From a virus: DNA of 35,149 nucleotides. A program made the position numbers and the translations under genes. Shown here in pieces: positions 96 to 30,402 of the stretch. The notes below the pieces were generated by a model that had not been told where the DNA came from, ran no database searches, and saw nothing but the letters and a program-made list of their open reading frames with translations. The stretch lies in the IMG/VR virus record IMGVR_UViG_3300025929_000035, positions 1 through 35,149 of that record; one strand, given 5' to 3'. Numbering within the stretch: position 1 is the stretch's first letter; each line of letters opens with the position of its first letter.

Positions 96-3000
96 TCAGG
101 CTGGGATGAGTCGCTCGTTTTGCTGCGAAATTCGCTCTCGGGTGAGGCCGGTTACGAGCGTTCTACCCTGCAATTTGGTCTGGCCCGATAGCTGGACTTG
201 GAGTCTGCCATTTTGTCCAACCGCTACCGGCTGCCGGCCGGATATTGCTCGTTCCGTCGCCTGCGCGGTTTGCGTGGCGAGTTGCGATGCGAACTGACTA
301 AAATCCTTCACCGGGCCGAACACTTCCGGCCCATTCTCGCCGGTGATGCCTAAACCACCATGCTCGAAGCCGAGTGCCCCTTTGATATTGCCCCATTCGG
401 CGATAATCCCTGCCACGGCGACGGCGCCAAGCCCAACGCCCACCAGCGGAACGGCCGATACCCACTGTGCGAACGCCGTGGCGGCCGCGCTGACGATCTG
501 GGCTGCTGCCGTGGCGATCGTCGCGATCTTCTCAGCCAGGAGCGAGATAATGCGTTCCGCGGTGCCTTCATTCGTTGCGACGGTCTTCGTTTCCTCGCCT
601 AAAATGTGCGCGGCAACCTCCGCAGCCTTGCCCGCTATGAATTCGGCCAGATAATTCTCGATCGCCTTCTTACCCGCCTCGTAAACATCGTTAAAGCCCT
701 TCGCCAGGCGCGTATTCACGTCGTCATTTTGCGAGGCTTCGAAATTCGTCCGCTGTTGGGTCAGATCGGCGAGCTTTACATTGTATTCGGTCGCGGAAAT
801 CAGCCCGCGCGCAAATTGCGATCGAAGATCGTTCTCCGTTTTGTCGAATCCAAGCTGCTTTACGTTCGCCGCCGTCGCGTCGAGCGCCGTAGTCTTCGCC
901 GTCAGGTCGTTCCAGATCGTCAGGATGCCGTCGTGTATCGCTTGCGTGACATCCAACTGATTCTTCTTGAAGAGATCGGCATATTTCGTGCGGATGCCAT
1001 AGATTTTACCCTGAAGATCGCTCTCGGCCGTCGTCACTTGCGCTTGCTCGGAAGGTGTTAGCGTAAATCCGGCCGCTTGCTTGGCGTCCAGCGCGGCGAG
1101 GAGTGCCTGCGCGGCTTGCGTGGCCGCATCGATCTCCTTTTGCTCCGCATCCTTCATGATGGCGAGCTTTTGATCGGCGCTTTCTTTGAAAATTAACTTC
1201 CCATTCTCATCGATGGCCGTCAGGTTCGAAAGTTCCAGCGCGGCCTGACTGTTGAGCAAGGCAATCTTCGCATCGGCCGAGTCTTTCGCGTCAGCCAGTT
1301 CGTTATCGTGTTCCGTTTTTTGCAGCGAGAGGATTTTCTCCGATAACTGTGCCCGTTGTGCCAACGCATCGGCCGCCGCAGTGGGGTCGGTCAGCGGAAT
1401 TCGTATCCTATCGAATTGCTCCTGCAATATCGCGATCTGATCTTCGACATTGGCATTGTCCTCGATCTTCGGATGGAGGAAGAAATCCGATTGCGTCTGC
1501 GCGATCGTAAGCATCGCCGATCGCAGATCGTCCTCGGCTTTGGCTCGATCGACCGTGATCTTAAATTGCAGGTTACCGATGTTCGTCGTGAAGTCCCGGT
1601 TGATCTGCGCGAGGTTCCGCGAAATCTCCTGTGCCTTGATCGGGTCGATGGCCTGGAAGGCTTTGATCTGCGCCTGGATGTTCTGCACGCCGTTGGCCTG
1701 GTGAAGGAACGATTGATACGTCTTCTCCGCAATATCCAACTCCTCCTGCGAGGTCAGCGTGCGGTGTTGCGCGTCGGCTGTCAGTTGCAGGCTGGCGCGT
1801 AATCGGTTGCCATCGGCCGTCGCCGTGGCTTGCGCCTTCGAAAGGTTATCGGCAGCATTCGCGCCGGTCAGGTCCCCAAGCGTTTTCTGTGCATCGGTCG
1901 CGCGGCGCGACTGCTGTTCCCATAGTGAGAGGATGTCCAAGTTCTTCTGCACGCCCTGCGCCATCGCCAGCACGCTGCCGGTCCAGTCCTTGAACCCGGC
2001 CGCGGCCTCCTGCCGGAATTGCTGGAGCGATACCGAGGGCTTCCCAATGTCATTCGCGATCTGTTGAAGATCGGCTTGCACCGACGCCTGGATGCCCTTG
2101 ATGTTATCCGTCGACTGCTGCGCCTGCGTCTGCTGATGTCCTTCCAGGGCCTTGGCCGAGGCGAGGAACTTGTTATCGGCATCGGCCCACGCTTTGGCTG
2201 CGGTCTCGGCAGCCGTCTCGCTTTCACTGCCGACCTTCTTCATCGTGCCGGCCAACTCTGCCGCCGCCGATGCCGCGCCAGTGATCGGCGCGGTCACACC
2301 TTCCTGAATGCCTTTGCCGATCTGTTTCGCGCCGTCTTTGACTTTTGTAAAATCGCCGGTAACAATTCCATCGATCACTTCGAAGAGGCCGCCGAACCCA
2401 TCGATCAGCGCATGGATCGCCGCCATGAAATCGCCCTCGATAAACGCCCAGCCGACCTTCAGCACGTCCCAGATCGAATCCATGATATTGCGCGCGGCCT
2501 CGCTATGGTCGTAAAGCTGTATCAGCCCTTCGACCAACAGGAAAATGACGCCAATGATAAGCCCGATCGGGTTTGCTTCTTCGGCTTCGTTCAGCCCTTC
2601 CTGCGCGACCTTCGCTCCCTCGGTCGCGGCGATGCCGGCCGTCTCGGCCGCCTTCTTGGCAAAGAGTCCTGGGATGAGATGTTCCAAGATTTCCTTCCCA
2701 AGCTTGGTCGCCTCGCCGGTAAGTTCCTCTAACTCCTTCGACATGCCGCCCGCTTCTTCGACCGCGAAGTTTGCCTTCAGGAGTATCCAGGCACCCGCCG
2801 CCGTTTCGACGGCCGTCTTATTCTCTTCGAGGAACTTTGTGGTGTCTTCGATGCCCGTAGCCAATTCGGTCAGCACCGGAAGCACCGGGTCGATCGCGGC
2901 GACCAAGGCGCCGCCTAACGCGCCCTCGGTCTCCTGCAAGTCCTTCTGGAACTGCAATAGCCCCGCCTGTGGCGAATCCCCGATCTTCTGCGCGAACCCG

Positions 3001-3902
3001 CCAAACTTCGCCTCGGTCGCCGCCAGGAATTTATCGACGTTCCCTTCCACATCGCCGGGGTTGAAGTCGATATGAAGTTCCCGCACGGTACCGCCGGAGG
3101 AAAGCTTATTCGAAATGTCGGCGCTGACTTCATCCAGCGACCGGTTCGTGCGCGCCGCGAAATCTTCCATGCGCGCCGAAAACTCTTCCAGCTTGGCCGT
3201 GTCCTTCAACTGCCCGAGCGACGCGCCCAGCGCGATCGTGTTCTCGATCGACGCCTTGGTGAATTGCGTCGTATGGTCCTGCACCTCGGCAAATTGCGTC
3301 AGCGTGGCGATCGCCTCTTTGCCGCTATTGGGAAGTTCATTGAGCGCGATCGAGAGGCCCTGCGCGGCCCGCTGTTGGTCCTCGAACTGCGTGACCGAGC
3401 CAATGAGCGTCGAAATGCCGCCCTGCACGCCGGCCACGCCCGCGCCCAGCGTCAGCGCCTTCTTAATCTCCGATCCGAACGACGAAGCCGAATTTTTGAC
3501 CGAATCGAATTCGGCCGGTATCCGCGCGACCTCGGAACGAAAGTTCGTGACCGCCTGCGCATTGAACCCTTCCTTCACCGGCGTTTGCAGCGCCTTGATC
3601 TGCTCGGTCGCCGTGGCAATCTGCGCGTTCAACGCATTGATCTTCGTCGGGTCTTCCGCCGCGTCCCGCGCCGTTTTCAGGTCGGCGAGGTTCTTCTTCC
3701 AGGTGTCGATCGATTGCACCTGCTGCAATACTTTCGAATTCAGCGCATCGAGGGTCGTCGTCGTGGCCGCCGCGTCCACGCCCAGCGTAATGCCCGATCC
3801 CTTCGCGATCGAGGTAAGCTGATCCTGCACGCCATTCAGGATGCTATCCGTGTTACCCTTGTCGAAGGTAAGCTTCGCCAGTACGTCGAAGACCTGTGCC
3901 AT
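96..3902 (-). CDS. Tail tape measure protein
   Basis: The protein sets tail length and lies in the tail lumen before DNA ejection. It has 1268 residues and is the longest gene here. It is rich in Ala, Gln, Glu and Lys with long predicted coiled-coil stretches (roughly 40-130, 580-760 and 790-1000). It has a hydrophobic helix near residues 444-463 and a second hydrophobic region about 100-150 residues before the C-terminus. The stretch FEHGGLGITGENGPEVFGP near the C-terminus is the Gly-rich motif common at tape measure C-termini. It lies downstream of the chaperone pair, as usual, but a 715-aa gene intervenes. It is the last gene before the left end, so no distal tail genes follow. The ATG start is preceded by a copy of the 15-bp leader element. 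The size would suit a long non-contractile tail; no sheath gene is seen. Confidence 0.9.
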   Translation of the reverse strand: MAQVFDVLAKLTFDKGNTDSILNGVQDQLTSIAKGSGITLGVDAAATTTTLDALNSKVLQQVQSIDTWKKNLADLKTARDAAEDPTKINALNAQIATATEQIKALQTPVKEGFNAQAVTNFRSEVARIPAEFDSVKNSASSFGSEIKKALTLGAGVAGVQGGISTLIGSVTQFEDQQRAAQGLSIALNELPNSGKEAIATLTQFAEVQDHTTQFTKASIENTIALGASLGQLKDTAKLEEFSARMEDFAARTNRSLDEVSADISNKLSSGGTVRELHIDFNPGDVEGNVDKFLAATEAKFGGFAQKIGDSPQAGLLQFQKDLQETEGALGGALVAAIDPVLPVLTELATGIEDTTKFLEENKTAVETAAGAWILLKANFAVEEAGGMSKELEELTGEATKLGKEILEHLIPGLFAKKAAETAGIAATEGAKVAQEGLNEAEEANPIGLIIGVIFLLVEGLIQLYDHSEAARNIMDSIWDVLKVGWAFIEGDFMAAIHALIDGFGGLFEVIDGIVTGDFTKVKDGAKQIGKGIQEGVTAPITGAASAAAELAGTMKKVGSESETAAETAAKAWADADNKFLASAKALEGHQQTQAQQSTDNIKGIQASVQADLQQIANDIGKPSVSLQQFRQEAAAGFKDWTGSVLAMAQGVQKNLDILSLWEQQSRRATDAQKTLGDLTGANAADNLSKAQATATADGNRLRASLQLTADAQHRTLTSQEELDIAEKTYQSFLHQANGVQNIQAQIKAFQAIDPIKAQEISRNLAQINRDFTTNIGNLQFKITVDRAKAEDDLRSAMLTIAQTQSDFFLHPKIEDNANVEDQIAILQEQFDRIRIPLTDPTAAADALAQRAQLSEKILSLQKTEHDNELADAKDSADAKIALLNSQAALELSNLTAIDENGKLIFKESADQKLAIMKDAEQKEIDAATQAAQALLAALDAKQAAGFTLTPSEQAQVTTAESDLQGKIYGIRTKYADLFKKNQLDVTQAIHDGILTIWNDLTAKTTALDATAANVKQLGFDKTENDLRSQFARGLISATEYNVKLADLTQQRTNFEASQNDDVNTRLAKGFNDVYEAGKKAIENYLAEFIAGKAAEVAAHILGEETKTVATNEGTAERIISLLAEKIATIATAAAQIVSAAATAFAQWVSAVPLVGVGLGAVAVAGIIAEWGNIKGALGFEHGGLGITGENGPEVFGPVKDFSQFASQLATQTAQATERAISGRQPVAVGQNGRLQVQLSGQTKLQGRTLVTGLTRERISQQNERLIPA

Positions 3903-3908
3903 TATAGT

Positions 3909-3923
3909 GGATCAGCGATGATG
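3909..3923 (-). repeat. 15-bp leader element, copy 1 (before tape measure start)
   Basis: On the minus strand this reads CATCATCGCTGATCC and lies 6 nt upstream of the tape measure ATG, filling most of the gap after the preceding stop codon (3928-3930). The same 15 bases occur before the genes starting at 8018 and 21670, always in the sense direction. Confidence 0.8.
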
Positions 3924-3927
3924 AACG

Positions 3928-6075
3928 TTAATTCCTTACGGTAATTGTTAAGGTTGCGACGCCGGCATTGCCGTGCAGATCGTAGGCAAGGATCGTGAGA
4001 ACGTGCGTCACCGGCGATGCGACGCTTCCCGTAAGCTTCGTCGTATCGAGCGAAAGGTCCCACTCGGTATTCGCGGCGTCGCCCATGTTTGGTGTCGTTA
4101 CGCGCGTCTGGAATAAAATTCCGTCGATCGCCATCGTCACCTGCGACACGCCCGATTGATTGCTCGTTACTACTTTCACCGCGACGGTTCCCGAAATCGG
4201 CGCGCCGGTCGGATTGGTGATGGTGACGCCAGGCACATCCCTCGATCCCGAGGAACCCGCCGCCGTGCTTGGGCCATTCACCGGCGGAAGCGTGAAGGAG
4301 GAGGGAGGTATCTCGATGAGTTTCCATTCGATGCCGGCGCCGGGCGTGCGCGTGCAGCCGATCGCCGTAAAGAGCCGAGCGGTCGAAACGCCGTTCGCTT
4401 CGAGCACGTCATCGTTCACCGTGGAGAAAATTCCAGGCTCGATCGTAATTTTGCGGTGAAGCGGGAAATAAGCCCAGTCCCATAGCAGGAAGGTCTTTTG
4501 CGGCGCGGCGATGCCGGCGGGCAAGTCGGCGCCGAACGGCGCAATGCCAACGCCCGCGCCCTGGATGGTACAGACCGCGCGCGGCATCCCCCAGCGCGTG
4601 TATCGCTTCACCGCGTGCAGCGTTGTCCAATCGGTGTAGGGCAGCCCGCCACTGCCGGGCACGCCGCCTTGCGAAATAAGGTCCCAGCCTTTGCGGACCG
4701 GGATGTAATCGGTGTTGGCGTCGTTGCGAACATATAATTCCCATCCGCGCGGGCTGTCCACCGATGCGCCTCCAACAACGCTCGATCCCATGAATCGAAA
4801 GAGTGTCGTGTACGATTGGTCCGATCCGCCCTTCATCGGCGAAGCGATCGTGCTATAAGGAGGTTGCGGGAAGAGATCGGTGGTCGAAGGTTCGGTGATC
4901 TTGTAATTCGAAGCATAGGCGGCCGCAGGGTTCATATCGATCCCGTCCTGGTTCTCATCGATGTACGCATTCAGCACGGCCGCTTCGAGCGGCATAATGA
5001 GAAAACGCGCCCATTCGTCGTAGTCAACGCCTGCGCCATTGGACCAGGTGTTCGGAAGTTCGCCCTGTAACGTTAGGAATAATTCCCGGCACATCTCCGC
5101 AATCCCTTGCGCGATCGTCGTCCAGCGATAGAAGGAGGTCTGGTCCGCCGCCGCCGGTGGTACCGGCTTGAAGAGCAAACCTCCCAGCACGCCGCCCACG
5201 AAGGGAATCTTGATATAAATATCCCAGAGGTTCGAGAACCATAGGGCCTCGCTGCCATTGAGCGCAATTTCCAACTGGCCCCACGCTTCGCGATGGCCCG
5301 TTAGTTCGACCCCTTGCACGATCGGGACCAAACGATGATCGGCCAAATATTTGAACAGCGTGGGCGAAAACGCATTGATAAGTTCCAACATCACCTGCCC
5401 CAGCGAGAGATAACCTCCGCCTGGCACGATGCCGGCCAACTCGTCGAGCGATGTAATTACTTCATCGTCCCCGTGGGCCTTCATCCATGCGATAAATTCC
5501 ATATCGAGCGCGCCGATATGGTTTTTGTCCATTCGCACGATCGCGTTCGTAACGCCCGCCGTCGGCCGGCCGACGCGCGCATGTGGCACGAAGCGCTGGA
5601 TCGAGGGTTTGTCGTGCAGCGAAGAGGCGTTTAGAATGCCCCAGAAGACGTGGTGCCGCTTGGCCGGCCATAAGAACGAGGACGCTCCGATGCTCACTCT
5701 GGCGTCCAACACGGGCTGTTCTAACGCCAGCAGTGCCCACACCTCCCACTCGGTCGAACGCGCGGCTTCCACCAGCGGAACAAGTTCTGGCCGCGACGCC
5801 AATGAGACCTTCAGCGTTTGAACGCTCGGTACCGACTGCTCGTATTCGCTCTCCGTGGCAATGGCGATCGGGCCAAGGCTGTCGAGCATCGATGGCGCAA
5901 GGACCGTGGGAGCAATGGGAGTGGCAGGAAGAGGGAAGTGGCTATTATCGTTGATCGCCGAATAATGATACTCCAACTGCTTTTTCGTTCCATACGGCAC
6001 CGAATAAAGATGAAGGGTATAGATCCCTTCATCTTTCTTCTGCGCGATCGTAAAATGAAACGGTAATAAGCTCAT
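3928..6075 (-). CDS. Virion structural protein with C-terminal Ig-like domain (tail tip candidate)
   Basis: This 715-aa protein was not matched to a named family. Residues about 605-715 look like a bacterial Ig-like domain: a DVPGVTITNP start, alternating beta-strand pattern, the LTILAYDLHGNAG segment and a TLTITVRN end. The rest is mixed alpha/beta with many aromatic residues and no signal peptide. It lies between the tail assembly chaperones and the tape measure gene, so it is probably a tail component. As no separate distal tail, hub or baseplate gene is recognisable, it may fill that role; Ig-like domains on tail proteins often bind surface glycans. The start ATG at 6075 follows CATCATCG, a partial match to the leader element. 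Function is inferred from position and the Ig-like end. Confidence 0.6.
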   Translation of the reverse strand: MSLLPFHFTIAQKKDEGIYTLHLYSVPYGTKKQLEYHYSAINDNSHFPLPATPIAPTVLAPSMLDSLGPIAIATESEYEQSVPSVQTLKVSLASRPELVPLVEAARSTEWEVWALLALEQPVLDARVSIGASSFLWPAKRHHVFWGILNASSLHDKPSIQRFVPHARVGRPTAGVTNAIVRMDKNHIGALDMEFIAWMKAHGDDEVITSLDELAGIVPGGGYLSLGQVMLELINAFSPTLFKYLADHRLVPIVQGVELTGHREAWGQLEIALNGSEALWFSNLWDIYIKIPFVGGVLGGLLFKPVPPAAADQTSFYRWTTIAQGIAEMCRELFLTLQGELPNTWSNGAGVDYDEWARFLIMPLEAAVLNAYIDENQDGIDMNPAAAYASNYKITEPSTTDLFPQPPYSTIASPMKGGSDQSYTTLFRFMGSSVVGGASVDSPRGWELYVRNDANTDYIPVRKGWDLISQGGVPGSGGLPYTDWTTLHAVKRYTRWGMPRAVCTIQGAGVGIAPFGADLPAGIAAPQKTFLLWDWAYFPLHRKITIEPGIFSTVNDDVLEANGVSTARLFTAIGCTRTPGAGIEWKLIEIPPSSFTLPPVNGPSTAAGSSGSRDVPGVTITNPTGAPISGTVAVKVVTSNQSGVSQVTMAIDGILFQTRVTTPNMGDAANTEWDLSLDTTKLTGSVASPVTHVLTILAYDLHGNAGVATLTITVRN

Positions 6076-6090
6076 CGATGATGGGTCTCG

Positions 6091-6447
6091 CTATTTCGGT
6101 CTCGGCTCGTCGTCCAGATAATGTTTCGTCCGTTCCATCCAGTAGCACTCCATCAGGTCGAAGCGGTCGTGCCGGCGGATAAAATGGAAGTAGTCATTCA
6201 GGCTGCCGTTCGTCGCGCGGTTAAGTTGGTACGCTAAGAACTTCACCAGCGCGTATTCCGGCAATTGCTGGTGTGGGAACCGCCTCTGGAGCGCTTTGGC
6301 GGCAAGGTCCTCGCCGCCCAAGTATTCGATCGCGGCTCGGAATTCCTCATCGCGCTCGTGCTCCTCATCGGTCCCCACCCACCGCGCAATCAGCCATTCT
6401 CGCCGCCGCTCTCCGCAGCGGGCGGAGATGGCAGCTTCCCGTTCAGA
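6091..6447 (-). CDS. Frameshift-encoded C-terminal extension of the tail assembly chaperone (GT-like T part)
   Basis: This frame is -1 relative to the upstream gene ending at 6390. Starting from the slip site at 6447 it gives 118 residues, so the fused product would have 255 residues (137 + 118). An in-frame ATG at 6495 would give a stand-alone 134-aa protein, but it lies inside the upstream gene with no obvious translation signal. The part after the slip is charged at first (SEREAAISARCGERR), then helical and aromatic (YLGGEDLAAKALQRRF, DYFHFIRRHDRFDLMECYWMER). In lambda, gpG and the frameshifted gpGT load the tape measure protein during tail assembly. Assignment rests on the frame relation, slippery site and position upstream of the tape measure gene. 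Confidence 0.7.
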   Translation of the reverse strand, partial: SEREAAISARCGERRREWLIARWVGTDEEHERDEEFRAAIEYLGGEDLAAKALQRRFPHQQLPEYALVKFLAYQLNRATNGSLNDYFHFIRRHDRFDLMECYWMERTKHYLDDEPRPK

Positions 6448-6857
6448 AAAAAATTGAGGGCCTCCGCGATCGTCTGCGATTTGGTCTTCTTCCAATCGAC
6501 TTCCGGAACTTCCTTCGCATCGCCTTTGGAAATAGTGACGATATGCTTCAGTTCTGCAAGCGTCGATTCGAGGATAGCCGCGTCCTTTTTGCCGACCAGC
6601 TTCTGGATCGCATCGCGCCGTTTTGACGCGGTCTCGTAACGGTCCTTGTTCGCTACCGGGTCGATCGTAAATTCAATTTCGACTTCGGCAAATTCTTTGT
6701 TCGCCTCGGCCAGCTTGTCGAAGATAGCGCCGCGCTCTTCGCGCAACGTCTTCAGGCGCATGGCCTCCTCCTGCACTTTGGACGATACGTCGATGGAATT
6801 GTGCTTTACCGTCGCTTTGATCTCATTGCCCTGCTTGTCGTAGAGTGTGATTTGCAT
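6390..6857 (-). CDS. Tail assembly chaperone (gpG-like)
   Basis: This is a 155-aa, mostly helical acidic protein (residues 25-110 charged and coiled, with TASKRRDAIQKLVGKKDA and LAELKHIVTISKGDAKEV). It ends in a Pro/Gly/Ser-rich tail (LPSPPAAESGGENG) that is replaced when the ribosome slips back at codons 136-137 (both TTT). Size, position between tail tube and tape measure genes, and the overlapping -1 frame all match the lambda G/GT arrangement. The beginning is beta-like (MQITLYDKQGNEIKATVKH), as in several siphophage chaperones. Sequence similarity to a known chaperone could not be tested. Confidence 0.72.
   Translation of the reverse strand: MQITLYDKQGNEIKATVKHNSIDVSSKVQEEAMRLKTLREERGAIFDKLAEANKEFAEVEIEFTIDPVANKDRYETASKRRDAIQKLVGKKDAAILESTLAELKHIVTISKGDAKEVPEVDWKKTKSQTIAEALNFFLNGKLPSPPAAESGGENG
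6410..6428 (-). promoter_or_regulatory. Stem-loop downstream of the slip site
   Basis: On the minus strand TCTCCGC (6428-6422) pairs with GCGGAGA (6416-6410) around a 5-nt loop, giving a perfect 7-bp GC-rich stem. It begins 18 nt after the heptamer. Typical stimulatory structures start 5-9 nt downstream, so it may be a stimulator in a longer fold or incidental. Confidence 0.4.
6447..6453 (-). promoter_or_regulatory. -1 ribosomal frameshift site T TTT TTT
   Basis: On the minus strand the codons are AAT TTT TTT CTG (Asn-Phe-Phe-Leu). The last T of AAT plus two TTT codons forms a perfect X XXY YYZ heptamer in the zero frame. Slipping back one base gives TCT GAA CGG (Ser-Glu-Arg) and enters the open frame that ends at 6091. 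The frame shift direction and overlap agree exactly. Confidence 0.78.
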
Positions 6858-8018: not shown

Positions 8019-8033
8019 GGATCAGCGATGATG
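8019..8033 (-). repeat. 15-bp leader element, copy 2
   Basis: CATCATCGCTGATCC on the minus strand, identical to copies at 3909-3923 and 21652-21666. Here it is the entire intergenic spacer: the upstream stop codon begins the neighbouring bases (8034-8036) and the ATG of the next gene follows immediately (8018-8016). Confidence 0.8.
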
Positions 8034-9206: not shown

Positions 9207-9224
9207 GGTGTGTTAGTTGGTTAG
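9207..9224 (-). promoter_or_regulatory. AC-rich leader before the tail tube candidate
   Basis: On the minus strand the leader is CTAACCAACTAACACACC immediately before ATG. It overlaps the last codons and stop of the glycosyltransferase gene. It resembles the capsid gene leader at 16698-16720 (CTAAtCAACC...AACACAtCC). No Shine-Dalgarno sequence is present, so such leaders may promote initiation by being unstructured. Confidence 0.5.
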
Positions 9225-10304
9225 TGCTGTGCTGGCCTTGTGGGCTGGCATGTGTTTCGTGAAATTTTCAGAGGCGAGGTTCGCGATCGTCCGCTCCTTC
9301 GCGTCCTTTGGCAGGATCGGGCAGTGCAGCACGGCTTCGAACGCGCCGCGTGCATAGTCGATAAAGCCCATGTAATAGGCGGCGATCGCGTATTCTTCCA
9401 ATAGCCGCCATCCGGCGTTCGGATCGACAAAGCAGATGTCCGGCGTCATCGAGGGTACGGCCTCGCGCGCCAGGGCGTACATGTCGGCATAGCGCTCTTG
9501 CTCGCGCAAAATCATCATCAGGTCCACGCGCGCTTCGCAGCGGCTGGGGCGGTACCGGCACGCTTCGCGGAAATCCTCTTCCCGGTTCGTCATCCGCGCG
9601 ATCTGCCACAGCGAGAGATAGACTTCCTCCTCCCAACCGCCCATCGCAACGCGTTCGCGGTATTTCGCAATCGCTTCGTCGGTCCGCTTCAAATCGCGGA
9701 GCGTGTTCGCATGATAAAAAACGTTCCGAGAGGTCTTCTCCGCCGTTTCGAAGAGTTCCAAATGCCCTAAGAACTTATTGCCGCTGACCGATTGATGCCC
9801 GCCGGGCTTCGGGACGATACAGCAGGAGGTGATCTTACCCGCGCGGGTATTGGCAGAATGCGGGCCTTCGCGGTACGGGTGCTCGTGGCACACACCTTTG
9901 TAGCGCCAGGTACCATCGTTGCGGAAAACGCGCACGGACCAAAATTCGCAGTCCTCATGGACAATCTTGATCGAATACGAATCGAACGGCTTGCCGTCCT
10001 TCGCCAGGGGAAGGACGAGCGGACCTTCGAGTGTTTCGTCGGCGTCCAAAATAAAAATCCAGTCGCCGGAAGCGGAAGCGATCGCAAGGTTGCGGTTCGT
10101 CGAAAAATCGACCCATTTATCCGAACGCAGGGTTCCCGGTACCCGCCGGAACATTTTCGAAATGATCGCCTTCGTGTCGTCCGTCGAGCCGGTGTCCGAA
10201 ATCGAGAACGAATCGATCTTGCCGCGCACGCTCTTCAAAGCGCGCCCGATCACCGGCGCTTCATTGCGCACGATCATCGTGAGGCAAATGGTCTCTTTCT
10301 TCAT
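9213..10304 (-). CDS. Family 2 glycosyltransferase with C-terminal TPR-like repeats
   Basis: The 363-aa protein begins with the GT-A fold signature of family 2: LTMIVRNEAPVIGRALKSV at residues 8-26, DTGSTDDT at 37-44, and FILDADETLEG at 84-94, where Asp87-x-Asp89 is the metal/nucleotide-sugar motif. WRYKGVCHEHPY near residue 137 matches the acceptor-side region of this subfamily. Residues about 190-350 are helical repeats (AIAKYRERVAMGGWEEEVYLSLW, RYADMYALAREAV), as in SPOT/TPR-fused glycosyltransferases. It is cytoplasmic, with no membrane segment. It overlaps the end of the collagen-like fibre gene by one base at the shared stop/start region, so it is translationally coupled to it. It probably glycosylates that fibre; alternatively it could alter host surface glycans, though its place in the late tail operon argues against that. 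Confidence 0.88.
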   Translation of the reverse strand: MKKETICLTMIVRNEAPVIGRALKSVRGKIDSFSISDTGSTDDTKAIISKMFRRVPGTLRSDKWVDFSTNRNLAIASASGDWIFILDADETLEGPLVLPLAKDGKPFDSYSIKIVHEDCEFWSVRVFRNDGTWRYKGVCHEHPYREGPHSANTRAGKITSCCIVPKPGGHQSVSGNKFLGHLELFETAEKTSRNVFYHANTLRDLKRTDEAIAKYRERVAMGGWEEEVYLSLWQIARMTNREEDFREACRYRPSRCEARVDLMMILREQERYADMYALAREAVPSMTPDICFVDPNAGWRLLEEYAIAAYYMGFIDYARGAFEAVLHCPILPKDAKERTIANLASENFTKHMPAHKASTALTN

Positions 10305-13300
10305 CAGCTTATCTTCTTCCAGGCCGATCCGTTATAAATAAATTGCGATGCCGTAGCCGCCGCGACGACAAGGCCGGTTGTGGCGGCCGTAGAATCCTTA
10401 TTCTCCACGACGATCATTTGCCCCGTCACGCCCGAGGGCGCTGTCACAGCCACGGCCACGCCGCCGTTCGAGGGAACAATATAATAGAGATGATTGCCAT
10501 CGAGCGTCGTAGCATTCGTTGCAACGGTTGCCGTCACGCTCGAAAGCGTCATTGCGCCATTCGAGAAGGTGATGATCGTGGCGAGGGTTTGCGCCGTCGA
10601 ACCGGTGCCGATCGCGGGCGCGGATTGAAGAGCAATAGAGCCACTGGCCGCGGTGCCCGTGCCGATTCCACCGGCGATCGTCACATTGCCGCCAGCCAGG
10701 TTCGTTCCGTTTGCGCCGGAGCCGTGCCACGTAACGTTTGCACCCGCATGGCCACTTGCTGATTTGTTGCCCGAGCCTCCTAAGTAAACATCGGTGATAT
10801 GCCCATTGCCGGAAGAGTCGTCCGATCCAGTGATGAACGTATTGCTCATCCCGACGGCGGCATTGATTCCCGCATTCCAGCCGATCGCGACGTTGTAATT
10901 ACCTGTTAAGGCAATGTCCAACGCGTGATTTCCGACCATCACGTTCTGACTGCCGGTTTGTAGCGTGCTTCCGGCGTACATGCCGACCGCCGTATTCTCA
11001 TTTCCCGACGTAAGCGCATGAAGCGCATTCGTTCCGAACGCAGAATTGTATGCGGAAGAGGAGTTTGCGGAACCAAAAGTACCGTACCCAATGCCCGTCT
11101 GATAGGAACCCATGCCCGTTTTACCGGCCAAAGCTCCGATGATCGTATTCTCTACATGTCCGAAGCATGAAAAAACGACATTCGCACTGGAGTTAAAAAG
11201 ATAGAATGGGTCGAGGAAAATCTGCCCCGCCGCGAAAGTGGCAGAAAGATTGCCAATCGTCACAAGTCCGGTCTGGTCAATGGTGAGGGCCGTATTCGTA
11301 ATCCCGGTCGCATAAGAATTACTCGTTCCCAAAAAGAGAGAGGAGCCAGAGCCTGCGCCCACCATGCCGATACGCGCCTCCGCCTTACCGGGGACATTAT
11401 CCGAACTGAAGTCGATAGAGCGATAAACGCTATAGGTCGATGCGTGAATATCCAGACTACCCGCGTGCGCATTATCGGTGAGTGATGTAATGCCGGACCC
11501 GCTGTTAATCGCAAAGCTTTTGGTATACGATCCCGCATTAATCGAGTTCGAAAAAACGAGATTCGATGTGGGGTTGGCCGCTCCCTGCACGGGTTGCGTT
11601 TCCATAATCCAATCTGTCGACTGGCTTGCGGCCGTCGCATTGGTCTTCCAACCCGTGCCTGTTAATCGCAGGCGCGGCGAGAACATCTGGTTTCCCGATG
11701 TTGCCGCATTCGAATTGTAGAGCTGAAGGCCATCGGCAGAAGTATTCGCCGCGATCGCCTGTGGAACATTGGCAGGTAGCGAGAATACACCACCTGGGCC
11801 GGTTGCGCCCGTCGCGCCGGTTGCGCCGGTTGGGCCGGTTGGGCCCGTTGCACCCACGGCACCATTGGAACCGTTCGAACCCGCCGCTCCGGTTGCACCC
11901 GTCGCACCGGTCGGCCCCGTTGGACCCACAGCGCCAGCCGCACCCGTGGGACCGGTTGGCCCCGTGGCACCAACTGCGCCATTCGAGCCGGTTGCACCGG
12001 TTGCACCCGTCGCACCGGTCGGCCCCGTTGGACCCACAGCGCCAGCCGCACCCGTAGGGCCGGTCGGCCCGGTTCCACCTACTGCACCATTCGAACCTGC
12101 TGCGCCGGTTGGTCCCGTCGCACCGGTTGCCCCGGTTGCACCGGTCGGCCCCGTTGGACCCACAGCGCCAGCCGCACCCGTAGGGCCGGTCGGCCCAGTT
12201 GCACCAGCTGCGCCATTCGAACCTGCTGCGCCGGTTGGTCCCGTCGCACCGGTTGCCCCGGTCGGCCCCGTTGGACCCACGGCACCGGCTGCGCCCGTGG
12301 GACCGGTTGGCCCCGCTACGCCCGTCGCGCCGGTAGGCCCGGCATTTCCTTGCGGTCCCTGGCCTCCGGCAACCTCGACAGCCGTTAGTGTGACATCCGT
12401 AATGCTTGCCGTGTGGACTTGCGCGGATAGGGCAATGTCGAACCAATAGGGCGTTCCGGCCGTCGCGCCGGCAACTATTCCATTGGTAATAAATTCGGAA
12501 GGATTGCCGGTATAGACAAGCGCATTCGTTCCGAGTATGGTACCCGTGAGTGCCGCGCCATTGATGGGCGGCGTTCCGGTACCATAACGCAAGTAGAGGT
12601 TCCGTGCGTCCTTGTTCGCCAAGCCCCGCGCGCTGAAGAGAAGCGTGCCGCCCGTGATCGGTGTAATCGATCCGGCGAGGCCCATCATCACGCCGGTGCT
12701 GTTCGCGGTCGATGCGGGGTTCGCGGGCAGCGATTGATAATGCGCAAGCGTGTTCGGTCCGCCGGCAGGTCCAGTCGCGCCGGCGGGACCCGTCGGACCC
12801 TGCGGGCCGCTTGGCCCCGGCACGGTCGACGCTGCGCCGGTCGGTCCCGTTGGTCCGGTAGGGCCTTGCGCTCCGGCTGGGCCAATTAAACCTTGAATGC
12901 CTTGCGGCCCTGGCGCGCCTTCCAACACAAGCAAGCCCCAATTCGCAGTGTGCGAGGGATCGACGCCGGTGCATCCGACAATATTGACATAGCCCGATCC
13001 GGCGTAGGTAACTAAATCATTCGTGACGTAAGCCGTCCCGGCATTGTAGGCACCTTTGTATTCCAAGCCACTGATGCCATCGGCACCGGCAACGCCTTGA
13101 ATGCCCTGGATGCCTTGCGCGCCCGCGGGACCGGTATCGCCTTGCGCGCCTTGCGGTCCTGTGGGACCGGTATTGCCTTGCGGCCCCGTCGCGCCCGTTG
13201 CACCGCCGGCGCCGGTAGGTCCGGTCGGTCCCGTCGGACCGGTCGCGCCATCGGCGCCGTCCACGCCCGCCGGCCCGATCGGGCCTGGCAGCCCCTGCGC

Positions 13301-13396
13301 GTTCTCGATCGTCGCGATGATATTATCTTCAACGGCAATCGCGGCCTCGATCGAGTCCGTAAGATTGATTGACGCCTGGATAATTTCATCAGCCAT
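10304..13396 (-). CDS. Collagen-like tail fibre protein
   Basis: A 1030-aa protein. An ATG at 13396 is used as start because GGTGAG lies upstream; a TTG four codons earlier is less likely. Order: a 30-residue N-terminal helix; collagen Gly-X-Y (about 35-110); a small aromatic domain ([19 protein letters not shown]...W) resembling carbohydrate-binding modules on fibres; short Gly-X-Y; a globular domain (about 230-345); a long Gly-Pro-Thr/Gly-Ala-Thr collagen stretch (about 345-545); a globular section; YadA-head-like repeats ([26 protein letters not shown]-type); and a beta-rich C-terminus. Collagen triple helices suggest a trimeric host-binding fibre. Pro is absent from many Y positions, where Thr or Ala occur; Thr in Y is a known glycosylation position in bacterial collagens. 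The downstream glycosyltransferase fits. The antisense strand has a long proline-rich open frame that is only a shadow. Confidence 0.88.
11796..12360 (-). repeat. Collagen-coding tandem repeat array
   Basis: The DNA consists of degenerate 9-bp units grouped into longer near-identical blocks. The landmark CCATT(C/G)GA recurs at 11862, 11979, 12087 and 12213, giving steps of 117, 108 and 126 bp, all multiples of 9, so the frame is kept. Such arrays change length by recombination or slippage without breaking the protein. Confidence 0.8.
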
Positions 13397-13418
13397 GGAT
13401 CTCACCAATGATTCGCGA

Positions 13419-19862: not shown

Positions 19863-21191
19863 ATGCGATTCAAATTCAATTGGACCCGGCGCGAATCGAT
19901 GGAGCGGGACGACGAGATGTTCTCCGCCGCCATTCCGCATGACGAGCAATGGGCGGACCGCGTGATGAAAAGTTACACGGGCATTCAAGGTTCGCTCAGT
20001 TCGCTCTATACCGCGCCGCCGCCGTTCGACCCCTTCGCACTATGGACCTATGCCAGCAAGCGCAATGGTTACCATTCGGCGTGCCTGCACCTGAAAAAAA
20101 ATATGATCGTGGGCGGCGGCTTCACCGGCGATCCGCAGCTTCTCGCATGGCTCGATAACATCGAGACCGAAGCGGGCCTTGCCTCGCTCTTCTTAGAGAC
20201 CGCGCTCGATATGGAGACCTTCGGCTATGCGCCGCTCGAAGTCATCCAGGCCATTCCGACGGCGGACGGCCCGCAATGGGCGCTCTATCGCATGGCGGCC
20301 GTTGCCACGCGCGCGGTGCCGCCGCGTTACGATATGACGGGCAAGCAGATCACGCCGATGCAGTATTTGCAGTTTTCGTATATCTCGCGCAACACCGGAG
20401 TCCTCGACCGGTTCTGGCCGACCTATTTCGATCCGTTCCTTCCGGGCGTGCAGCACGGCGCGTATATGCTAAAGCTTCCCTCGATCACGGGCAACTATTG
20501 GTATGGCGAACCGGAATACACCTCGACGCTCGAACTCTTGGCGATGAACGTCTCGGTCGTCGATTACGCGAAGAAGATATTCAGCCAGGGCATGATGGCC
20601 GATGGCGTGTTTATCGGCGTGGGAACACAACTCTCGCCCAAAAAACGGAACGAATTAAAGCGGTATCTCTCGTCGAATTTCAAAGGCCTGGAAAACGCGC
20701 ACCGCATCGGCTTTATCCAGATCGGCGAAGGCGAGACCATGACGTGGGTCCCGATGAATGCCACGATGGACGCGAATTACTCCAAGCTGCGCTTGGACAA
20801 TCGCGATGAGATTATTATGTCGCATCTTCTTCCGCCGCGCATCGTCGGCGTGCTGGCCTCGGGTTCCCTTGGCGGCACGGGTGAAGTCGAGGGGCAACTG
20901 AAGATCGTGAAGCTTTCCCTTATCGATCCGAAACAAATTTTGTACGAATCGCAGTGGAAGAACCTCTTCCGCATGATGGGCGCGCCCATGTGGCAGACGT
21001 TCTCCTTCAAGGAATTGGATGTCTCGGCCGGCTCGACCGACGCCGCGCAGCTTTCCTCTGGCGTATCCGCCGGATGGCTGCCCGCGCAGACCGCGCTCGA
21101 CGAGTGGAACACCGAGAAATCGGCGGAGAGGAATGCCACATCGACCATCGCTTATTTGAAAAAGCTACGCGAGGAACTAAATAATGGGTAG
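19863..21191 (+). CDS. Phage portal protein (PBSX/P2 Q-like family)
   Basis: A 442-aa protein that would form the dodecameric DNA gate at the head vertex. Recognisable family features: PPPFDPFALWTYASKRNGYH near residues 50-70, HLKKNMIVGGGFTGDP, LFLETALDMETFGYAPLEVI, ISRNTGVLDRFWPTYFDPFLP, NYWYGEPEYTSTLELLAMNVSV with the Tyr-Tyr-Gly-x-Pro-x-Tyr type motif, and the strongly typical end ATMDANYSKLRLDNRDEIIMSHLLPPRIVGV. A C-terminal helical region ends in KKLREELNNG. Its stop overlaps the next gene start by 8 bp. The order portal, small terminase, large terminase is the reverse of Mu (27-28-29). Confidence 0.85.
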   Translation: MRFKFNWTRRESMERDDEMFSAAIPHDEQWADRVMKSYTGIQGSLSSLYTAPPPFDPFALWTYASKRNGYHSACLHLKKNMIVGGGFTGDPQLLAWLDNIETEAGLASLFLETALDMETFGYAPLEVIQAIPTADGPQWALYRMAAVATRAVPPRYDMTGKQITPMQYLQFSYISRNTGVLDRFWPTYFDPFLPGVQHGAYMLKLPSITGNYWYGEPEYTSTLELLAMNVSVVDYAKKIFSQGMMADGVFIGVGTQLSPKKRNELKRYLSSNFKGLENAHRIGFIQIGEGETMTWVPMNATMDANYSKLRLDNRDEIIMSHLLPPRIVGVLASGSLGGTGEVEGQLKIVKLSLIDPKQILYESQWKNLFRMMGAPMWQTFSFKELDVSAGSTDAAQLSSGVSAGWLPAQTALDEWNTEKSAERNATSTIAYLKKLREELNNG

Positions 21192-21651: not shown

Positions 21652-21666
21652 CATCATCGCTGATCC
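21652..21666 (+). repeat. 15-bp leader element, copy 3 (before large terminase)
   Basis: CATCATCGCTGATCC on the plus strand, right after the TAG stop of the small terminase gene and 3 nt before the large terminase ATG. Same orientation relative to the gene as the two copies on the minus strand. Confidence 0.8.
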
Positions 21667-21669
21667 ATC

Positions 21670-23247
21670 ATGCAACTCCGCCGCAAACCGTCACGCCTGA
21701 ACGATCGCGCCTACCAGGCCGCGAAAGACGAGCTATTAAAAAAGCTCGAAGCCGTCGCGCAGTTTGCCGATACCGACGCGAAGAAGGAAGATCGGATTGC
21801 GAAAGGACTGGACGATGCGTTTTATTTTGCGCGCACGTATCTGCCGCATTACTTCTCCACTACGGCTCATGATCGATCATCCGCACAGGCCGAATATCAC
21901 CCGGACCTTGTCGAAGCGTGCGAGATAGAAGAGACGCCGGTCACGATCACCGGCCCGCGCGGCGGCGCGAAAAGCACGATCGTCAGTTTTTTGGAAGTGA
22001 TACGGGACGCGTGTTACCAGCGCGAGGACTTCATCGTCATCAACATGAAGTCCTACGACCGGGCGGAACTATACACGCTCCGCATCCTCACGGAACTTCA
22101 GCATAATCCGCGCATCATCGAGGACTTTGGCCGTTTGGTCTCCAAGGCCGCAGGCGCTGGGAATTTCGCCACGCGAAGGACCCCCACGCGCGAGCGTTCG
22201 ACGCGCATCATGGCGTGGGGCGATGGAATGTCCATGCGCGGCCTGGTCTCCGAATATTCGCGGCCGACGAAGATCATCTGCGAGGATTTGCAAGACCGCG
22301 AAGCGGCGGAAAATCCGAAACGCACTTCCAAGCTGCTCGAAAAAATAAAGACCGACTGGCTACAAGCGACGGCGGCAAAGCATTGGAAGTTTATCGTTCT
22401 CGGCAATGTGATTTGTACCGGCTCGATCATCGACCGGCTTCAGAAGGAAGAGAAAGCGTGGAAGCATTATAAGTTCCTCGCCGAACGTCGCGATGCGGTT
22501 GGCAATCGCGTCGCAACCTGGCCGGAGCAATTCCCGCTCGAACGGCTCGACAAGATCATCCTTCAGATCGGGCATGTGTCCTATGCGGCCGAATATCTTT
22601 GCGAACCGACCGAAGTCAATCCCGCCGTCGATCCCGAAAAAATACGCCATTGGGAGAAGCTTCCAAAGTTCAAAGGCCGCGTGTATTTGGTGCTCGATCC
22701 ATCCGTCTCTGAATTCGGGGATAACAAGGCGCTCTTCGCGATGGTCCTTTGGAAGCGCCGCGTTAAAGATGAGGATTACATGACGCTTCGCGATGCGCGC
22801 GGCAAACTCTACGAGGCCGGTCTTTACAATCTGGTGCTCCGATGCTGGAACCGGCAAGCGACGACCGACGAAATGTTCGAGGAGCTTTATAAATATGACG
22901 GCTTCTATAATCGCCCCACGGTCCTCTACGACGGGACGTTCGGGCAGAAGCGAATTATGCGAAAGCTTGCCGCGCCCTGGGCGATTAAGATGGGCCGAAG
23001 GCTGCGGCTTCTGCATTATATTTTGAACCGGCCAAAGCCGCTACGGATCGCGGAACTTGCGCAGGACATCCAGGCGGGGTTCGTCCTCTTTCCACTTGCC
23101 GCCGGCGAACAGGAGCGCGATGTGAAAGAGACCATCATGCAGCTGGTGCGCTATGGCAAGCCGAACGTGAAAGACGATGGCCCCGATGCACTGGCCGCCG
23201 GCGTCGAGAAGGCAAACAAAATTTCCAATCCGGCTTCGGTCGGGTAA
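21670..23247 (+). CDS. Terminase large subunit
   Basis: A 525-aa packaging motor ATPase and nuclease. Walker A is GPRGGAKST (residues 95-103), Walker B KIICEDLQ (201-208; acidic pair Glu206-Asp207). The nuclease domain begins near VYLVLDPSVSEFGDN (338-351, Asp343), includes a second acidic region near residue 415, and ends in DDGPDALAAG (502-511, Asp506). It would cut concatemeric or integrated DNA and pump it into the head. Transposable phages package integrated copies together with some flanking host DNA, so a headful mode is expected. Adjacent to the small terminase and portal genes. Confidence 0.88.
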   Translation: MQLRRKPSRLNDRAYQAAKDELLKKLEAVAQFADTDAKKEDRIAKGLDDAFYFARTYLPHYFSTTAHDRSSAQAEYHPDLVEACEIEETPVTITGPRGGAKSTIVSFLEVIRDACYQREDFIVINMKSYDRAELYTLRILTELQHNPRIIEDFGRLVSKAAGAGNFATRRTPTRERSTRIMAWGDGMSMRGLVSEYSRPTKIICEDLQDREAAENPKRTSKLLEKIKTDWLQATAAKHWKFIVLGNVICTGSIIDRLQKEEKAWKHYKFLAERRDAVGNRVATWPEQFPLERLDKIILQIGHVSYAAEYLCEPTEVNPAVDPEKIRHWEKLPKFKGRVYLVLDPSVSEFGDNKALFAMVLWKRRVKDEDYMTLRDARGKLYEAGLYNLVLRCWNRQATTDEMFEELYKYDGFYNRPTVLYDGTFGQKRIMRKLAAPWAIKMGRRLRLLHYILNRPKPLRIAELAQDIQAGFVLFPLAAGEQERDVKETIMQLVRYGKPNVKDDGPDALAAGVEKANKISNPASVG

Positions 23248-28692: not shown

Positions 28693-28814
28693 GGGGATTT
28701 ATCCATGACGCGAGAATCGCCATCGAGGTGGCATTCGAAATTGGTTACCCGACCTTAGCTTGGAAGATTTTCAAATTTTATCGCGACGCGAGGCAAACGT
28801 TCGATCATGTGTGA
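28689..28814 (+). CDS. 41-aa coupled small protein
   Basis: ATG 28689 overlaps the ATPase stop (ATGA) and the frame ends at 28814, 8 bp inside the transposase gene. The sequence starts MRGFIHDARIAIEVAFEIGY and ends in a basic, aromatic helix (LAWKIFKFYRDARQTF). It would couple translation of the ATPase and the transposase. Function unknown. Confidence 0.48.
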   Translation: MRGFIHDARIAIEVAFEIGYPTLAWKIFKFYRDARQTFDHV

Positions 28815-30402
28815 CTTTAACGAATTGTTTTTGGAAGAGACGAGGCAGGAGTACGGCCGGCGTTACGCGCAGAAGCCGTATGACGCCGCGGCGTATCTTC
28901 GTGACGTTGCGCAACGAAAGGGCGTTTCGACCGCCACGCTCCACCGGCATTTGAAGCTCGACGTGCGCAAGAGGCGCGAAGTGCCGATCGCCACGCAGGC
29001 GCGGCAAGCCGAAATCGATTCCTACACGCGCATGATCTGGGAATTTTCCATTGCGCATTCGTTCGACCTCAATAAGATCAGCGTGCAGTTGGCCTGGGAG
29101 CATTTGATGCGCGAGGACCGCCTTCCGAAGACGCTGACGACGAAGCAAGTCTATGCCTCGATGCGCCGCCAGCGTTTACGCAATAATTCCGCGACGACGT
29201 GGAAGAAAATTCCCGAACGCAGGAAGCCGATGGACACCTGGCAGATGGACTTTTCCAAATCGCGATATTTCAAGCACCACATCTCCGCCGATGGCGAAAT
29301 CGAATGCGTCGCGCCGGTCACGACAAAGCGGCAGGACGACGGACGTTCGCTCTGGTTTGGCGTGGCCGTCGATATGGCGACGCGCGTGCTCTACGTCAAA
29401 TATTTCATCTCTCCGGGCGAGTCGGCCGAGAGCGTGATTGAATTTACGCTGGACGCTTTCGACGCCAAGCCCGGCATGTTCCTGTTGCAAGGGGTTCCCT
29501 CGTCGGCGTATGTCGATAATGGTTCCGGCTGGCTCGATGGCCGCATGGCGAACGGGCTGAAGAAGATCGGCGTGAAGGAAATTCTCGGTGGGTACCAGAA
29601 GGACGTTCACGGCCGCGCCTTGCCGAAGCGTAACAAGCAGGGACGCGGGCAGGTGGAGCGGTCGGTTAATACGATCAAGAACCGCATGGAAGCGGCGCTC
29701 TATCTTCGCATGGGCAAAGGGCGGAAACTGTATTTGAAAGACCTGAACGAGGCGGTGCAGGAATGGCTCGAAGAATGGAACCAGGGGCCGCACCCGATGG
29801 ACCGCACGGCGTCGAAGATGAACCTCTTCCTCGAACATGCGGGTAACCATTTCGAGCATTTGATCTATCCGCCGGAAGATGCGCGGGCACTCTTCAGCCG
29901 GTCGGTGATGAAGACCGTCGCGCGGCGCAAAATTTCGGTGGCGAAGAACACCTACGCCTTCGCGCCGGCCTTCGTCGATGATGGCGAATCGGTCGAGATC
30001 GTGAAGAACCAGATGGGCTATTTCCTTTTCAAGGGCGGCGAAATGCACGCGCTCCAAATCGAGAGCGAGAGTGCCGCCACGGTCGCCGCGCCACGGAGTA
30101 CCATCGTGCGCGAATTGAAGGACGCGAAGCTTTCGGACCTGGCACTACGCAAGCGCTTCGACGAGGAACTTCTTCGCGAGACGGGGAAGACGATCGGCCG
30201 CATGGCCGACGACGATTGGAACGATATTGCGCCGTTCTTCGAAGCGCCGCGCTCGGTGAAGGAGATCGAGGAGAAGGTCGCCTGGATGAAGATGCAGTCC
30301 GAGATTGCCTCGCACCCGCCGGTCGCCATGCCATCGAACATTATTCGAATGCCCGCGGAAAGTTTTATTGGGATAAATCATCCCGGAAAGGAACGATTAT
30401 GA
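28807..30402 (+). CDS. DDE transposase (MuA-like)
   Basis: A 531-aa protein. Residues 1-55 look like an HTH (AAYLRDVAQRKGVSTATLHRHL). The RNase H-like rve core carries Asp148 (TWQMDFS), Asp237 (AYVDNGSGW) and Glu284 (GQVERSVNTIKN), the DDE triad. A Mu-type C-terminal beta barrel follows (KISVAKNTYAFAPAFVDDGE), then a helical end that may contact the ATPase. It would cut and join the 21-bp-spaced repeats at the genome ends. Shorter than MuA (663 aa), mostly at the N-terminal DNA-binding part. Its stop overlaps the next ATG (ATGA). Confidence 0.9.
   Translation: MCDFNELFLEETRQEYGRRYAQKPYDAAAYLRDVAQRKGVSTATLHRHLKLDVRKRREVPIATQARQAEIDSYTRMIWEFSIAHSFDLNKISVQLAWEHLMREDRLPKTLTTKQVYASMRRQRLRNNSATTWKKIPERRKPMDTWQMDFSKSRYFKHHISADGEIECVAPVTTKRQDDGRSLWFGVAVDMATRVLYVKYFISPGESAESVIEFTLDAFDAKPGMFLLQGVPSSAYVDNGSGWLDGRMANGLKKIGVKEILGGYQKDVHGRALPKRNKQGRGQVERSVNTIKNRMEAALYLRMGKGRKLYLKDLNEAVQEWLEEWNQGPHPMDRTASKMNLFLEHAGNHFEHLIYPPEDARALFSRSVMKTVARRKISVAKNTYAFAPAFVDDGESVEIVKNQMGYFLFKGGEMHALQIESESAATVAAPRSTIVRELKDAKLSDLALRKRFDEELLRETGKTIGRMADDDWNDIAPFFEAPRSVKEIEEKVAWMKMQSEIASHPPVAMPSNIIRMPAESFIGINHPGKERL

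Follow-up and report, generated by a model that had tools for sequence, protein, structure and literature searches.

An open reading frame on the minus strand of a Mu-like phage is overlapped by a -1 frame that continues past its stop codon, and the question raised by this locus is how, if at all, the second frame is expressed. The source contig, IMG/VR record IMGVR_UViG_3300025929_000035, was analysed over its whole length of 35,149 bases (the window) and represents an isolated Mu-like transposable phage, with a MuA-type transposase at 28807-30402, a large terminase at 21670-23247, and a portal gene at 19863-21191. The minus strand carries a protease gene, a putative major capsid protein (MCP) gene, assigned from PHROG 1623 (virion structural protein) and from relatives, and then a tail cluster whose last gene encodes the tape measure protein (1268 amino acids; 96-3902, minus strand; PHROG 1535, tail length tape measure, E = 1.8e-4; PHROG 971, E = 1.3e-11). 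The contig stops right behind this gene, so later tail genes are absent from it. The tail cluster also contains a family 2 glycosyltransferase gene (9213-10304) and a long collagen-like fibre gene (10304-13408).

Reading frames and coding signal

The 0-frame product, a G-like protein of 155 amino acids, is encoded at 6390-6857 on the minus strand (ATG at 6857, TGA at 6392-6390), with a codon-bias score of 0.391 in its own frame. The initial annotation of this DNA had described an in-frame T_TTT_TTT heptamer, an open -1 frame leading to a 255-residue fusion, and a stem 18 nt past the heptamer, and all three were borne out. The heptamer occupies positions 6453-6447 (minus strand), in phase with the codons of G (AAT TTT TTT CTG at 6455-6444). 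The open part of the -1 frame starts at 6672, which gives it a 283-nt overlap with G, and the run of seven T residues is the sole in-phase XXXYYYZ heptamer within the 94 overlap codons. A -1 slip at the heptamer would join G residues 1-137 to a T-like segment of 118 amino acids (6091-6447, minus strand), which begins with SER and ends at a TAG stop codon (6093-6091); the resulting 255-residue fusion would have its junction at Phe137-Ser138 (..NFF-SER..). The tryptic junction peptide of the fusion is SQTIAEALNFFSER, and its G-specific counterpart is SQTIAEALNFFLNGK.

The site had also been placed upstream of the tape measure gene. The tape measure does lie downstream, but a 715-residue open reading frame (3928-6075, minus strand) separates it from T. 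The location of this gene, between the putative chaperone pair and the tape measure, is unusual, and the C-terminal part of its product matches an Ig-like domain (Pfam Big_7, E = 2.4e-5). A strong inverted repeat at 5997-6045 (21-nt arms, 86% complementary, 7-nt loop) is found within the first codons of the 715-residue gene, directly after T.

Chance alone would place an in-phase canonical heptamer in 15% of overlaps of this kind if codons are random and in 26% under synonymous resampling of G, and an off-frame stretch of 99 codons inside a gene is open in 8% of cases. The use of AAT TTT TTT for Asn-Phe-Phe has a probability of 0.036, the phage preferring TTC over TTT 177:72, and in-phase heptamers are present in further genes of the phage, so that the one at 6453-6447 is not unique. 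By themselves, the heptamer and the open frame are weak evidence; the case for a frameshift is carried by codon bias, by location, and by what is found in relatives. Read in the -1 frame, the 98 T-only codons (6387-6094) have a codon-bias score of +0.224; true genes score 0.293 +/- 0.105 and wrong frames -0.30 +/- 0.25 (95th percentile 0.106). The GC content of the T-only codons by codon position is 0.64/0.36/0.78, with a GC3 like that of real genes. Because the codon bias of the T-only codons is gene-like, we conclude that the T segment is probably translated.

Candidate stimulators and gene starts

Seven nucleotides 5' of the heptamer, at 6461-6465 (minus strand), there is a Shine-Dalgarno-like GGAGG sequence, a candidate upstream stimulator. 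Shine-Dalgarno cores as strong as this one were found in 1.4% of 14-nt coding windows. The spacing is short relative to the distance of 9-14 nt before the shift site published for Shine-Dalgarno-like stimulators of -1 shifts of the dnaX type (PMC5009743), and identical spacing is kept in the family of relatives represented by L029 (see below). The downstream stem-loop at 6410-6428 (minus strand) has 7 bp, formed by TCTCCGC and GCGGAGA around CCGCT, and is doubtful as a stimulator: its spacer of 18 nt is long, and the folding z-scores of stretches around it varied from 0.07 to -2.3 with the window folded, so that the stem is not clearly above shuffled sequence. A comparable stem lies about 15 nt downstream of the heptamer in the relative L204 (z -2.7), while no notable downstream stem was found in the relatives L170, L145, and L029. 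The initial annotation remarked, in view of the long spacer, that the stimulator may differ; GGAGG, which it overlooked, is the better candidate.

The presence of GGAGG is odd here, since the phage avoids Shine-Dalgarno sequences at its gene starts. A 4-base match was found in only one of 30 genes, versus 11 of 14 starts in L029, and because gene starts lack such sites, a Bacteroidota-like host is suggested. The ribosomes of such hosts sequester the anti-Shine-Dalgarno sequence, and Bacteroidia ignore Shine-Dalgarno sequences at initiation (PMC9976891). That GGAGG works as an internal Shine-Dalgarno stimulator in a phage that avoids Shine-Dalgarno starts is a speculative and rather unlikely proposal. 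If it were true, ribosomes that ignore Shine-Dalgarno sequences at initiation could still use them in elongation, and the site is a natural case for asking if an anti-Shine-Dalgarno sequence unused at initiation is available during elongation.

A different sequence is associated with gene starts of this phage. Exactly three copies of CATCATCGCTGATCC are present, at 3909-3923 (minus strand), 8019-8033 (minus strand), and 21652-21666 (plus strand), all in the sense direction and each immediately 5' of a start codon, those of the tape measure, a tail protein, and the terminase, respectively; a partial copy precedes the 715-residue gene. CATCATCGCTGATCC may be a leader element, in a phage that lacks Shine-Dalgarno sites.

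Homology searches and the site in relatives

No homologue of G or T was detected with profiles (Pfam, PHROGs, NCBIfam), no relative by tblastn against phage genomes or by pattern scans, and no match in structure searches of PDB and BFVD folds or in an Rfam search. Single-sequence AlphaFold models (pLDDT 61 and 46) contained only a generic helical hairpin and were set aside as too poor, as were fold-search matches, which were coiled coils at E > 0.01. Since known G/GT pairs are often mutually unalignable, a missing homologue lowers the proof of descent, not of function. Of the lambda G/GT reading proposed in the initial annotation, the -1 frameshift holds as the best explanation, while the chaperone identity rests only on position and on the layout of the gene pair.

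Single-protein scans revealed no relatives of G, MCP, terminase, or a tail protein encoded nearby, and no phage match was obtained by tblastn with G, MCP, or three neighbouring tail proteins. Terminase alignments yielded relatives that are only about 22-33% identical, and a portal alignment yielded phages whose portal, protease, and capsid genes are related but whose tails differ. A closer tail was found neither among 63 and 82 genomes, which cover the host class and the host phylum of L127, respectively, nor in 395 genomes from the phylum to which L149 belongs; L149 is a Chitinophagaceae bin and hence Bacteroidota.

The heptamer and its position recur in several of these distant phages. In L170, a head-gene relative, the small protein that precedes the tape measure has the sequence ..NAVFF where its gene contains nine consecutive T residues with an in-phase T_TTT_TTT, and the -1 frame stays open as far as the tape measure. 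In L204, a Bacteroidota prophage (G161) with related portal, protease, and MCP genes, the corresponding protein reads ..VDFF at a run of eight T residues, and the -1 reading frame ends at the tape measure start. The terminase relatives L145 and L029 read ..EDFF and ..TDFF, respectively, at T_TTT_TTT in the same layout. Across the ten loci of the L029 family (L210-L219; L029 and nine near-copies), AAGGAGG, the 7-nt length of the spacer, and T_TTT_TTT are invariant; two spacer bases differ in single loci, and many sites elsewhere vary. The L029-family site is itself a candidate for a naturally conserved, Shine-Dalgarno-stimulated chaperone frameshift site. Further relatives contain other heptamers, A_AAA_AAA in L138 and C_CCT_TTN in L134, L140, and L072. 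Conservation of the heptamer, which the initial annotation had proposed as a check, could be followed only in distant, unalignable relatives (14-19% identity), with T_TTT_TTT in several of them and other heptamers in others. Judging from these genomes, the frameshift device appears to be general in the neighbourhood of the phage, in proteins that cannot be aligned.

Neither an apparent overlapping pair in L202 nor an overlap with a glycosyltransferase-like reading frame in L204 was accepted as a chaperone frameshift site, and an alignment of L208 and L209 comprised two near-identical loci only and was uninformative on conservation. In Methanobacterium virus Drs3 (NC_062738; L196, 13620-13795), an open -1 frame runs from within gp30 into the gap between gp30 and a gene annotated as prominin, which is a likely tape measure; the frame is possibly an unannotated T segment, and a canonical in-phase heptamer was not seen there by eye.

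Mechanism and comparison with known systems

Because the T frame is coding and has no convincing start, and because relatives have the same heptamer at the same position, a -1 frameshift is the best explanation of the locus. We consider it highly likely that G and T form a pair of the lambda G/GT type, in which low-rate ribosomal -1 slippage at the run of seven T residues yields both G and a G-T fusion. The majority of ribosomes would produce the 155-residue G-like protein, and a minority would slip back by one base, with Phe tRNAs on U_UUU_UUU, and produce the 255-residue fusion. By analogy with lambda, the tape measure would become covered with many copies of G and few of G-T; the tail tube protein would be brought in through the T part, after which G and G-T would leave. 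The reading frames, the heptamer, the gene-like codon bias of T, the tape measure nearby, and the matching layout in distant relatives are observed; the slippage itself, its ribosomal nature, its rate, and the chaperone role are what we infer. Lambda-type shifting needs a rate of only a few percent. Against this reading, U_UUU_UUU shifts less readily in E. coli than A_AAA_AAG (PMC5009743).

A fusion could also arise through RNA polymerase rather than through the ribosome, if polymerase added one U or dropped two at the run of T residues, so that part of the mRNA would encode the fusion in a single frame. The site is a seven-base homopolymer, and the T runs of L204 and L170 are longer. Polymerase slippage, however, usually requires about nine or more A/T residues, a need relative to which seven is short; the in-phase T_TTT_TTT register and the preceding GGAGG fit ribosomal slippage, and the ten loci of the L029 family hold exactly seven T residues. 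For bacterial genes with a frameshift, slippage during transcription is accepted as an alternative (PMC5009743), and we judge it very unlikely here. The peptide crossing Phe137-Ser138, suggested in the initial annotation for detection by mass spectrometry, does not by itself prove ribosomal slippage, because one added U gives the same ..NFF-SER.. product.

Two separate proteins would result if translation of G stopped at 6390 and a T' protein were reinitiated on its own, for example at the GTG codon at 6378 (95 amino acids). This codon, the earliest possible start in the T frame past the G stop, is about 11 nt from that stop, and its lack of a ribosome site is not decisive, since genes of this phage start without Shine-Dalgarno sequences. 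Later starts are weak, though, and the T frame has no ATG until 6153; it is also open across 283 nt of G, and the T segments of relatives are likewise reached by a -1 slip. We therefore give an independent T' even less weight than polymerase slippage. Least credible of all is an accidental co-occurrence of the T run and the open -1 frame, the T frame then being a decayed or unused gene: the chance frequencies given above (15-26% and 8%) are not small, but the T-only codons score like true genes, beyond the 95th percentile of wrong frames, and this reading would leave 300 non-coding nucleotides in a compact late operon.

The proposed ribosomal -1 frameshift can be compared with several known systems. 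The G/GT tail-assembly chaperones of phage lambda, whose heptamer is G_GGA_AAG, are reportedly the subject of work by Xu, Hendrix and Duda from 2004; they are reviewed in PMC5009743. The locus resembles lambda G/GT in having a small reading frame before the tape measure, a putative -1 slip on a heptamer near the end of this frame, and a T segment without a good start; the fusion predicted from the phage sequence is here likened to the low-level G-T fusion of lambda. It differs in the lack of sequence similarity, in its T_TTT_TTT heptamer, in the extra 715-residue gene, and in the upstream GGAGG. Long-tailed phages widely retain the -1 G/T frameshift even though their sequences share little similarity, and in lambda the ratio of G to G-T, about 30:1, is important for tail assembly (PMC5009743). 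A T_TTT_TTC heptamer was reported in the Mu-like Pseudomonas phage PaMx73 (PMC4378225). ORFs 35/36 of D3112/PaMx73 share with our pair the transposable phage setting, the -1 frame, and a T-run heptamer in a putative tail-assembly pair (PMC4378225), but they belong to a different tail module, and the proteins are unalignable by tblastn. L204 is similar in its T_TTT_TTT, -1 reading frame, related portal, protease, and MCP, and downstream stem; its G protein, however, is 17% identical, its tape measure directly follows T, and its site lacks GGAGG. The L029 family has the same GGAGG, 7-nt spacing, and T_TTT_TTT, and a -1 reading frame that runs to the tape measure, but the L029 phage has ordinary Shine-Dalgarno starts and different proteins. 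The T reading frame gains a probable product that standard annotation would overlook or list as a gene of its own, and the pair is very probably an ordinary new example of a frameshift device known in many tailed phages.
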